Below are positions 40,181 through 43,571 of a DNA stretch of 64,000 bases, piece after piece (position 1 is the first letter of the stretch; each line of letters starts with the position of its first letter). Under the pieces are notes generated by a model. It was given only the letters and a program-made list of their open reading frames with translations, searched no databases and was not told where the DNA came from. The stretch comes from Bacteroidales bacterium (lineage in GTDB: Bacteria; Bacteroidota; Bacteroidia; Bacteroidales; WRLA01): positions 1 to 64,000 of the forward strand of contig WRLA01000008.1 of assembly GCA_009777825.1 (NCBI GenBank). The letters are read 5' to 3'. The position numbers and the translations under genes were made by a program.

Positions 40181-40321
40181 ATGCAGGAACTGATCCTCAT
40201 CGGACTTATCGCGTTGCTCTTCTTCGGAGGCAGGAAAATCCCCGAACTGATGAAAGGTTTGGGAAAAGGCGTGAAAAGTTTTAAGGACGGGATGAAAGAG
40301 GAAGACGACGCGCAAGAATGA
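40181..40321 (+). CDS. tatA: TatA-like twin-arginine translocase subunit, very short
   Basis: The 46-residue frame reads MQELILIGLIALLFFGGRKI, then PELMKGLGKGVKSFKDGMKE and EDDAQE. It has the TatA/B layout: one N-terminal membrane helix, the FGGRKIPELMKGLGKG hinge and amphipathic helix, and an acidic tail. Bacteroidetes TatA proteins usually have about 55-70 residues with a few more residues before the helix; here the frame upstream of the ATG is open only for some 18 codons without an ATG, so a non-ATG start is possible. No tatC gene is in the window. Confidence 0.85.
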   Translation: MQELILIGLIALLFFGGRKIPELMKGLGKGVKSFKDGMKEEDDAQE

Positions 40322-40413
40322 GATACAAGACCGTAAGACTTTTTAACCACAAAGTAGGTATTTTCCGTTGTAAAATGAAAAGATTGAATAACAAGATGAT
40401 TGAGATAGAAAAA

Positions 40414-40967
40414 AATAAGGGAATAAGGGATATAGGGTTTCATATTTGGCTACTAAGGGCGCTGTAGAAAATAAGGGTTTTCGTGTCTTGACTTCGACAA
40501 TACGACACCTAATCTTTTTCATACGGAATAGTAAAACACTACATCGTTATTGCAATAACCTCATTCCCACCTAATTTTTATAACGAAACAACCTCAGTAG
40601 CAATAAATTACAAACAAACACCAACCTCATTACCTCATTTCAAACGCAAAGAATGAGGTAATGAGGTTTATGGTTAATTGGCTCATTATCAGCTACTGAG
40701 GTTGTTTTCTTGTTTGAATGAGGTAAAAATGAGGTTTGTTCCGATTTCAATGACGAGACACTCAAATCGGCGTTCCGAATATCGTATTATATTGATATAC
40801 AGAGTTTCAAAAACATAGGAATAAAAGTGTCGAAGTCAGGAATAAGGGTTTTCATGTTGCAAAAGAGATACAAGTTGACATTATATTTCATGATTTTAAA
40901 ACCTTATTTTACAATAGTTCCCTTAGTAGAAAAGAAGTCCCCCGCAAGCATCCCTTATTCCCTTATT
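40414..40967. repeat. 555-bp nested inverted-repeat structure
   Basis: At least five perfect pairs are nested around a common centre near 40646: AATAAGGGAATAAGGGAT 40414-40431 with 40950-40967 (18 bp); TGACTTCGACA 40489-40499 with 40828-40838; AACCTCATT 40557-40565 with 40728-40736; AAACAACCTCAGTAGC 40586-40601 with 40692-40707 (16 bp); AACCTCATTACCTCATT 40623-40639 with 40652-40668 (17 bp). A direct repeat AATAAGGGTTTTC is at 40470-40482 and 40841-40853. No coding frame is apparent. It could be a non-autonomous mobile element, a structured RNA or a DNA cruciform. Confidence 0.85.
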
Positions 40968-40984
40968 CTCAAACAAATAGGAAT

Positions 40985-41200
40985 TTGTTATATAAAAGAA
41001 CACGAAGTACACACAAAGGGAAAGAGCAATGTCGTCATTGACTTTGTCTTCCTCCTTCGCGTCTCGGCAATTCGAGCAAGCTCGATTGCGCTCGACTTGG
41101 CGTCGGTTCCTGCGAAAGCAGGAATCCCCAAAGGTAAAACATCGAACAGGAGATTGCGGGTCGTTGCCCGCAATGACGTCATGAGTGTTTTGTGTTCTTT
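40985..41200. repeat. Dispersed repeat cluster
   Basis: TTTGTTATATAAAAGAACAC (also at 2951), ATTCGAGCAAGCTCGA (a perfect inner palindrome), GTTCCTGCGAAAGCAGGAATC (hairpin), and GGAGATTGCGGGTCGTTGCC followed by CGCAATGACG. The last resembles the unit inserted in the T9SS cargo gene. Confidence 0.75.
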
Positions 41201-41393: not shown

Positions 41394-43571
41394 TTATTTC
41401 GTAACCATAACGCGTTTGGTAACGCTGTTATTGTATTCGTCATAAACTTTGAAGAGGTAAACGCCGGTACTGTAGGACGAGATGTCAAATTTGTTGACGG
41501 TTTTGGTATCTACTAATTGTCCGACGGTGTTATAGATTTCTACTTTGGCGAAAGTGAAGTTGTCGGCGGTGATGGTGATCATGCCGGTGGTCGGGTTCGG
41601 GTAGATGGCTACGCTGTTGGCGAGTTCGGCGATGCCGTCGCCGGGACAGTTTCCTTTGGTTTCTGCTATTACGCCGTCTGCTTCTTTACCGCTGAGGCAA
41701 ATGGTCGTAATCGTCCAGGTGTAAGTAACGTCGTGTTCGAACTCAGCTTCTTCGACGTATGGGGAGGTTTCAACTGTAACCGGTGCAACGCCTTCTCTTT
41801 CAATTTTGTATTCTTTGGCGCCGGCGGCGGCTGTCCATGTGATGGTGGCTGTTTTGCACTCTTCGATGACCGCCTTTGTGCCTGTTACATTAGGACACGG
41901 GACGTCTATCTCGCCACACATTTCGTTTGACATAGCGGAATTTCCGCCTCCTACACAATTCACCATCAATTGATAACAATATTCACCGTCTTCAAGAGGT
42001 TTGTCGGTATAGGTGTTCCCTTTGAAACCAGACTCTATTACCACTGTATTACGATAAATATCTACTGTTGGCATCTCTACTTGAACAAAGCCTTTTATAC
42101 ACCAATTGTAATTTAATGTAGGCGCCAATTCATAAAGCGTACTCCATGCATTATTGAAGAACATAACATTACCCAGCCCTTCATTACGTGGACCATTATC
42201 GGTACCTGCAGGAAATTTATTTTCGTCCGGTACGGAAGTTATATTAGTGCAATAGTATCCAATCCATAATTCTTCTGATGCGTTAATGATAATAGGCGTA
42301 GTTAAAGTAACTGTATATTCATTGCCATCAAAAGGAATATTTGCATTGTCTATATCTTGAGAATGAATTTGGGTACCGGGGTTACGTGTTGGGGTCCAGG
42401 TACCGCCTTTATATATCCTGATGGAATAAGTATGTCCGGGTTCTGTTTGTGTTGAACCATACATAGGAGCAAAAGCAACATGTGTGATTTCACCGCCATT
42501 AACAATGGCTAAATCGTCTGGAGTAAAGCGATGATAAACTCCGAAAGAGGATTGTCCTGCGCCCACTCCATTATTTCCAAAATCACCACCTTGAGTAATA
42601 ATAACATCGTCTCTCTTTGTAGGATAGGTCCAATCTACTTTCAATCCATCTGTTCCGGAATTGGTTACGGCTGTAATAGTTGCTGCAGAGCAGTCGCCGC
42701 TATCATCACAAGCATTTAAGGATTGAGTAACCGCCTCTGATTCGAAGTCATCGCAAACAACTTTTACAGACCATGTATGAGGTACAGTTATATTAAAGCC
42801 GGCATCGGTATAGGATGTTGTAGTTACAGTGGTAATCTTAATATTGTCGCGGTAAATGTTGTAGGTAAGATCTGAAGCCGGAGCAGTCCACGTCAAATTT
42901 GCTTCGCAGTCTGAAGTATAAGCAACGGTTAAGTTTGTTGCGGGGTCGCATTCGATAATTACATCGGGTGTTACTGTCAGAGTGATACCATCATTACTTC
43001 CTACTAGATGTGCTAAAAAGTGGTATGCATTCCCTTCTTCAAAAACAAAATTGTCTTGGCGTGGATCAAAAGGTCCATAAGTACTCGGAAACCACAGACG
43101 ATCGTCGCCCCATCCTAACTCTAGATTCGTAAAGCAAAAATCGTAAGTGCCGGCAGGAATGTAAACCGTAACAGATCCGTGTACAAATGTTGCATGTGAA
43201 CATTCAGCCGTGGCATTTTCCGGGATCTTGTGTGTAGCCCAATTGTAAAGCGTAGAGGGAACAGGACAAGATGCCCATGGATTTGCAGTAGCGGGAAACC
43301 CTACATCGTACTGTGTAGCCGTTGCATCTAATAATAATTGATAACCGCTGCCATCAGTCCATGGATCATTAGATTCCAGTGTAACTTTGACCAATCCGCG
43401 AGGTGTGGGTGAAGAAATACCTTTTTTAAAGGCATTCATACTTGCAAATTGACTGGAACTTTGGATTTGGGTACCCGTCGCCTTTGTTCTTGCCATTTGC
43501 GCATTTAGACTTCCAACGCACAGCATTGCTATCAACGCCATGCAAACTGATTTTGTAATAAATTTTACCAT
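41394..43571 (-). CDS. T9SS cargo protein with gingipain-adhesin-like (DUF2436) domain
   Basis: The 725-residue protein has a signal peptide (KSVCMALIAMLCVGSLNAQ), a DUF2436-like domain as in the haemagglutinin regions of Porphyromonas gingipains (residues of about 55-210: YNWATHKIPENATAECSHAT, VYIPAGTYDFCFTN, DNFVFEEGNAYHFLAHLVGS), FN3-like modules (NLTVAYTSDCEANLTWTAPA and later), and a C-terminal sorting domain (VAIYPNPTTGMITITADNFT to VTKRVMVTK). No protease domain is present. It is probably a surface adhesin. It ends at a hairpin terminator and starts under its own promoter box. Confidence 0.88.
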   Translation of the reverse strand: MVKFITKSVCMALIAMLCVGSLNAQMARTKATGTQIQSSSQFASMNAFKKGISSPTPRGLVKVTLESNDPWTDGSGYQLLLDATATQYDVGFPATANPWASCPVPSTLYNWATHKIPENATAECSHATFVHGSVTVYIPAGTYDFCFTNLELGWGDDRLWFPSTYGPFDPRQDNFVFEEGNAYHFLAHLVGSNDGITLTVTPDVIIECDPATNLTVAYTSDCEANLTWTAPASDLTYNIYRDNIKITTVTTTSYTDAGFNITVPHTWSVKVVCDDFESEAVTQSLNACDDSGDCSAATITAVTNSGTDGLKVDWTYPTKRDDVIITQGGDFGNNGVGAGQSSFGVYHRFTPDDLAIVNGGEITHVAFAPMYGSTQTEPGHTYSIRIYKGGTWTPTRNPGTQIHSQDIDNANIPFDGNEYTVTLTTPIIINASEELWIGYYCTNITSVPDENKFPAGTDNGPRNEGLGNVMFFNNAWSTLYELAPTLNYNWCIKGFVQVEMPTVDIYRNTVVIESGFKGNTYTDKPLEDGEYCYQLMVNCVGGGNSAMSNEMCGEIDVPCPNVTGTKAVIEECKTATITWTAAAGAKEYKIEREGVAPVTVETSPYVEEAEFEHDVTYTWTITTICLSGKEADGVIAETKGNCPGDGIAELANSVAIYPNPTTGMITITADNFTFAKVEIYNTVGQLVDTKTVNKFDISSYSTGVYLFKVYDEYNNSVTKRVMVTK

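Follow-up and report, generated by a model that had tools for sequence, protein, structure and literature searches.

Nested repeats downstream of tatA in a Bacteroidales genome: a MITE with IS1634-type ends and octamer units associated with a clade of Y1 transposases

The gene-poor interval that follows tatA in a Bacteroidales genome very probably holds a nest of mobile elements, in which a MITE mobilized by an IS1634-type transposase has entered an older dispersed repeat and in which both layers bear units that would be the end or recognition sequence of a clade of Y1 transposases. The locus lies at positions 40414-40967 of the window, by which we mean the whole 64,000-nucleotide stretch of DNA that was analyzed.

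Results

No sizeable gene is present between tatA, placed at ~40182-40322 by reading the sequence, and a minus-strand gene at 41394-43571, as a reading of the sequence alone had stated. An inverted-repeat search of 40414-40967 returned the perfect outer pair of 18 bp reported there (arms 40414-40431 and 40950-40967), as well as the inner pairs based on repeated ACCTCATT units, one with 29-nt arms that are 83% complementary (40611-40639/40652-40680, centre ~40645) and a second with 45-nt arms at 78% (40557-40601/40692-40736, centre ~40646). A further pair had 32-nt arms (75%) and a centre at about 40689. The 555-bp set of nested inverted repeats is real, but it is not the single structure with one centre that had been supposed; three nested layers are present, with distinct centres at ~40690 (outer units), 40663.5 (the MITE ends at 40487 and 40840) and ~40646 (inner pair).

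According to the sequence-only reading, the locus resembled no known IS and none of the dispersed repeats, and the lack of a further copy in any genome would have counted against its interpretation. Used as a query, 40414-40967 instead gave 34 matches in its own genome, a 69%-complete assembly of 90 contigs. These matches split into copies of an inner block (40486-40841) on contigs C11, C35, C25, C7, C13 and C73, an outer block, which C57 has without interruption, and isolated arms at C9 and C59. When the repetitive protein of the neighbouring gene was the query, no clear ortholog was seen in the congeners G001 and G002, and an ortholog of the locus was not found in these two.

The outer dispersed repeat starts with a left module, GTAGGTATTTTCCGTTGTAAAATG...GATTGAGATAG (40350-40413, plus strand), of which copies accompany the outer units at C57 and C23, and finishes at 40968-41000 (plus strand) with a right end, ...CAAACAAATAGGAATTTGTTATATAAAAG, common to C57, C23 and C37. 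Between these lie two units of the AATAAGGG type. The first, U1 (40414-40477, plus strand), was aligned with units of its own and other genomes and contains the boxes AATAAGGG at 40414-40421, 40422-40429 and 40470-40477 and CTACTAAGGG at 40450-40459. Its tail-to-tail partner, U4 (40900-40967, minus strand), contains ACCTTATT at 40901-40908, CCCTTAGTAG at 40920-40929 and two copies of CCCTTATT at 40952-40967, and this pair has its uninterrupted copy on C57. The left module (~60 bp, GTGGGTATTTTCCGTTGTAAAATGAAAARATTGAATAACAAGATGATTGAGAT) was also observed solo in at least seven other places in the genome (C7, C17, C26, C35, C4, C6 and C86). Farther downstream, 67 bp at 41034-41100 are identical to a stretch of C25 (L021:3783-3849, minus strand) and belong to further dispersed repeats with CTTTGTG/CTCTGTG motifs.

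Directly after U1, within the outer repeat, is a 354-bp non-autonomous element with IS1634-type ends (the MITE, 40487-40840, plus strand), whose copy on C11 is 92% identical. It is bounded by 13-bp terminal inverted repeats of the CYTGACTTCGACA type, CTTGACTTCGACA at 40487-40499 and TGTCGAAGTCAGG at 40828-40840, and has no open reading frame of 80 or more residues inside it. Within it is a head-to-head pair of units of the AATGAGGT type, separated by the 12-bp loop TCAAACGCAAAG (40640-40651). U2 (40557-40639, minus strand), of which two solo copies occur at C9, has the boxes AACCTCATT (40557-40565), ACCTAATTT (40569-40577), ACCTCAGTAGC (40591-40601) and twice ACCTCATT (40624-40639); U3 (40652-40736, plus strand, read from the sequence) has twice AATGAGGT (40652-40667), CTACTGAGGTT (40693-40703), AATGAGGT (40717-40724) and AATGAGGTT (40728-40736).

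The four arms seen in the window all represent a single kind of unit with four to five direct octamer boxes, in which two tandem octamers are followed by a spacer of 20-25 bp, the sequence CTACTRAGGK and one or two more octamers. The general formula is (AATRAGGK)x2-N21-29-CTACTRAGGK-...-AATRAGGTT, with a length of 60-85 bp. The own genome contained 24 tandem-octamer sites, compared with three for a reversed control pattern, and two congeners contained none. Scanning 84,980 species genomes with the unit pattern revealed the unit in at least 119 stretches of other genomes, mostly of Bacteroidota; among the matches listed were some from termite-gut Planctomycetaceae and one from a Desulfococcaceae. 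The Planctomycetaceae loci (L222, L237, L248-L250, L255, L256, L258, L270, L273 and L276) reflect either transfer between phyla or mis-binned contigs.

Among the matches listed, AGG, which the search pattern did not demand, followed CTACTN in 136 of 147 distinct units. In the same matches the variable box bases agreed within a unit (79+49 of 142 at one position, Fisher p ~1e-23), although p-values overstate such agreement because the sampled units are not phylogenetically independent. Head-to-head pairs were found 25 times, with loops of 9-30 bp in 21 and with two units of the same type joined in 24, and tail-to-tail pairs were seen at L269, L305 and L331 in addition to the outer pair of the window. 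No hairpin was detected in single units, the single-stranded DNA fold of 60 units giving z values of -0.11 for one strand and -0.09 for the other. The unit is widespread in Bacteroidota and apparently undescribed, to the extent that key-word literature searches, which cannot prove this, can indicate.

A connection with Y1 (HUH) transposases was evident at C59 of the own genome, where two inverted units surround a deleted Y1 transposase gene (PF01797, E 5.7e-5), and a close Y1 homolog lay directly beside the unit in 5 of the 119 foreign loci listed. An independent search of 393 genomes of the order, made with the Y1 protein only, provided 30 loci that were fetched, comprising 21 members of one clade (support 100/98) and nine sister proteins of 42-46% identity. 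On reading the flanks, unit boxes were present beside every clade gene (21/21) and beside none of the sisters (0/9). A strict automatic rule found units beside 17 of the 21 and none of the nine (p 5e-5), and a looser rule that accepted every tandem octamer accompanied by the core scored 18 clade members as positive.

Nearly all clade members contain YILNQPEHH and WQ, and most contain EHVH or EHIH; a protein of Ferruginibacter paludis (L275) belongs to the clade. Two clade proteins matched PF01797 with E values of 2.5e-18 and 1.6e-17, scored just above the cut-off of 55 bits for NF033573 (56.6 and 56.5) and fell far below that of 80 for NF047646, the REP-associated tyrosine transposase model (23.4 and 16.8). 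The AATAAGGG-type loci L310 and L349 are sisters in the Y1 tree (support 98/95), as are the AGAAGGT-type loci L339 and L344 (support 100/99), which suggests, from two subclade cases only, that box type and Y1 protein change together. An intact cognate Y1 gene was not found in the 69%-complete own assembly. Two Y1 copies in G152 share a left border near a box motif, their right side being obscured by repeated boxes.

These observations are consistent with a unit that an IS200-like Y1 transposase clade of Bacteroidota uses as its end or recognition sequence. The protein would most likely read the octamer boxes, perhaps in single-stranded form; a head-to-head pair would then represent Y1 ends that have no transposase gene and may move in trans. 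By analogy with IS200 and REP, we infer that such pairs have been mobilized as single-stranded DNA by a Y1 protein that reads the boxes. It is the system of unit and Y1 protein, which is presumably mobile, that is new here. The units could instead be binding sites of a host protein, such as a nucleoid, replication or regulatory protein, beside which Y1 genes landed by chance, since direct repeats whose bases vary together inside each unit resemble multiple sites for one protein and single units form no hairpin. This explanation is improbable, however, given that the units flank one Y1 clade and none of its sisters, that box type tracks Y1 subclades in both cases above, and that many units are paired across a short loop, the arrangement that gene-less ends should have.

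The ends of the MITE occur ~25 times in its own genome, often near contig edges, and a slightly extended pattern was present in 20 of 99 related genomes. At C34, a 650-bp remnant retains an IS1634 transposase fragment (NF033559, E 1.7e-12) between both MITE-type ends. In G021 and G055, IS1634 transposase genes have a MITE-type end at a distance of 52-57 bp, and G024 contains a full IS1634-type element with related 18-bp ends, CCCGAGTTTGACAGTTCA. The 69%-complete own assembly, in which many ends lie at contig edges, yielded only remnants; an IS1634 element that is intact and has the identical ends was not found there. Contigs C7, C13, C25, C63, C65 and C70 each terminate within a few hundred bases of CCTGACTTCGACA ends; these elements therefore probably break the assembly, and the true copy number would be higher.

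The MITE is flanked by a 17-bp target duplication, AATAAGGGTTTTCGTGT on the left (40470-40486, plus strand) and AATAAGGGTTTTCATGT on the right (40841-40857, plus strand), identical at 16 of 17 positions. The outer matches from the two sides meet at C57 with an overlap of exactly 17 bp, AATAAGGGTTTTCRTGT, which is present there as a single copy. Because this flank stands on both sides of the MITE and is single at C57, it is a target duplication whose homologous site at C57 is uninterrupted, and it lies at the border of the inner element rather than at 40414 and 40967, where target duplications had been anticipated.

Direct repeats of other lengths adjoin elements with MITE-type ends in related genomes. 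They measure 162 bp in the congener G001 (98.8% identical), 77 bp in G074 and 224 bp in G057, where the elements form a tandem array of four. That array (L193, G057:C35, about 1536-2770) consists of four tandem 140-bp MITEs with the 224-bp duplications between and around them and was apparently amplified by recombination between the long target duplications. In the own genome, a perfect 31-bp repeat that adjoins the C11 copy at one side and the C7 copy at the other is best read as a duplication from one insertion split over two contigs, which calls for a join across contigs. Several other elements with MITE-type ends had no recognizable duplication at their borders. For IS1549 and IS1634, long and variable duplications of 8-514 bp have been described, for which, according to that account, no mechanistic model had been proposed (PMC2266710).

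Given the unusual length and variability of these repeats and the repeat-rich nature of the genomes, the flanking sequences might have been pre-existing repeats used for recombination. This appears improbable, as the 17-bp sequence is single in C57, the repeats, though of five different lengths, stop precisely at the element borders in each case, and like behaviour has been published for IS1634 and IS1549 (PMC2266710). Movement of the MITE by an IS1634-family transposase acting in trans is thus an inference from sequence that is well supported by the shared ends, the border repeats and the published duplications of IS1634 and IS1549 (PMC2266710).

The two layers also occur apart. Members of the unit family are found outside the MITE (C9, C3, C76, C25 and C59), and MITE-type ends are found without units (C34 and G001), so that the layers are independent elements that have become nested; the outer pair, which the MITE split, is the older. 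The sequence-only reading was right in kind to propose a non-autonomous transposon, but at least two nested elements are present in place of one of 555 bp. That a single 555-bp transposon with nested inverted repeats moved whole, as its multicopy pieces and perfect 18-bp outer repeat could suggest, is highly improbable and is refuted by the separate occurrence of the two layers, the outer part standing alone at C57 and the inner 354 bp at C11, C35 and C25. The 17-bp duplication at the inner border and an outer repeat that extends past 40414-40967 on both sides also speak against it.

The order of the locus is beyond chance, as had been claimed, in that none of 100 shuffles folded as well (z -13.3). 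It is likewise highly improbable that this very stable fold marks a structured RNA of large size, or a hairpin with a regulatory role, that happens to be repeated, since the window had no Rfam match at gathering score, permissive E-values retrieved nothing but eukaryotic families that are unrelated and score far under the cut-off, uninterrupted and half copies exist, truncated, solo and deleted ones are common, single units do not fold (mean z -0.1), and the inverted insertion of ends accounts for the fold. A search for tRNA and tmRNA genes found none. For the cruciform role also envisaged, no positive evidence emerged, and the three centres do not support a single-centre cruciform. The separate layers, the association with the Y1 clade and the lack of hairpins in single units therefore identify the locus as a nest of transposons rather than as a structured RNA or a cruciform with one centre.

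Discussion

The arrangement after tatA can be explained by the following sequence of events. An older dispersed repeat carried two tail-to-tail units of 60-85 bp with AATAAGGG boxes. A 354-bp MITE, which a DDE transposase of the IS1634 family would have cross-mobilized, then inserted beside U1 and generated the 17-bp duplication. Two further units of this family, arranged head-to-head and with AATGAGGT boxes, came with the MITE itself.

With the IS1634/IS1549 family (IS4 superfamily) and its MITEs, the inner element shares ends found on elements with an IS1634-type transposase and long, variable target duplications (17, 31, 77, 162 and 224 bp here; 8-514 bp in PMC2266710). It differs in that the elements described here are non-autonomous, 140-354 bp long and without a transposase gene, and in that the 354-bp MITE contains a foreign pair of Y1-type units. 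A key-word literature search revealed no title combining MITE, IS1634 and direct repeats. Long variable duplications (17 to 224 bp) can now be seen to accompany non-autonomous elements whose ends are of the IS1634 type as well, and in one case element and duplication form a tandem array.

REP units are hairpins of 20-40 bp, and IS200/IS605 elements have subterminal hairpins at their ends and are cleaved as single-stranded DNA at a tetra- or pentanucleotide with target specificity. As in REP/REPIN-RAYT systems, the dispersed units flank a Y1 gene and form head-to-head and tail-to-tail dimers, and the conserved GTAG of REP is matched by the unit box CCTYAGTAG on the other strand. The units described here, by contrast, are 60-85 bp arrays of four to five direct octamer boxes that form no hairpin singly, and the clade proteins score far below the RAYT model (about 23 and 17 versus 80). 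As in IS200/IS605, a Y1 transposase gene (PF01797, with NF033573 just above its cut-off) lies between inverted ends and some genomes have several copies, although the ends are octamer arrays and not subterminal hairpins. Since the protein is IS200/IS605-like and the layout like that of REPs and REPINs, while hairpins are lacking and the RAYT threshold is not reached, the system is filed as a variant that resembles both groups.

By motif, the nearest described group would be TnpA-Y1 subclass 1.2 of Quentin et al. (2018), a Bacteroidetes subclass with Y---Q--HH, WQ and DH[IV]H motifs for which no REP and generally no terminal structures were reported (PMC6006769). The clade shares the Y---Q--HH signature, the WQ motif and the occurrence in Bacteroidetes listed in the table of that work (PMC6006769), and differs in having mostly EHVH for DH[IV]H and units beside its genes. 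A Y1 clade near a subclass for which none had been reported thus gains a repeat partner.

A broader proposal, which we hold tentatively and regard as somewhat short of an even chance, is that this Y1 clade knows its ends by direct octamer arrays without a hairpin, that the boxes (AATAAGGT, AATAAGGG, AATGAGGT and AGAAGGT) co-evolve with the protein, and that head-to-head pairs without a gene hitchhike in MITEs of DDE transposons. The natural variants, in which box and protein apparently change together, make HUH end recognition testable by box swapping.

The own genome has two other Y1 genes, on C24 and C41, with no octamer units flanking them. The intact gene on C24 (L214, G000:C24, 1489-1941) sits amid many palindromic GGGCAACGCCC-type repeats, with which it possibly forms a separate REP-like system in this genome.
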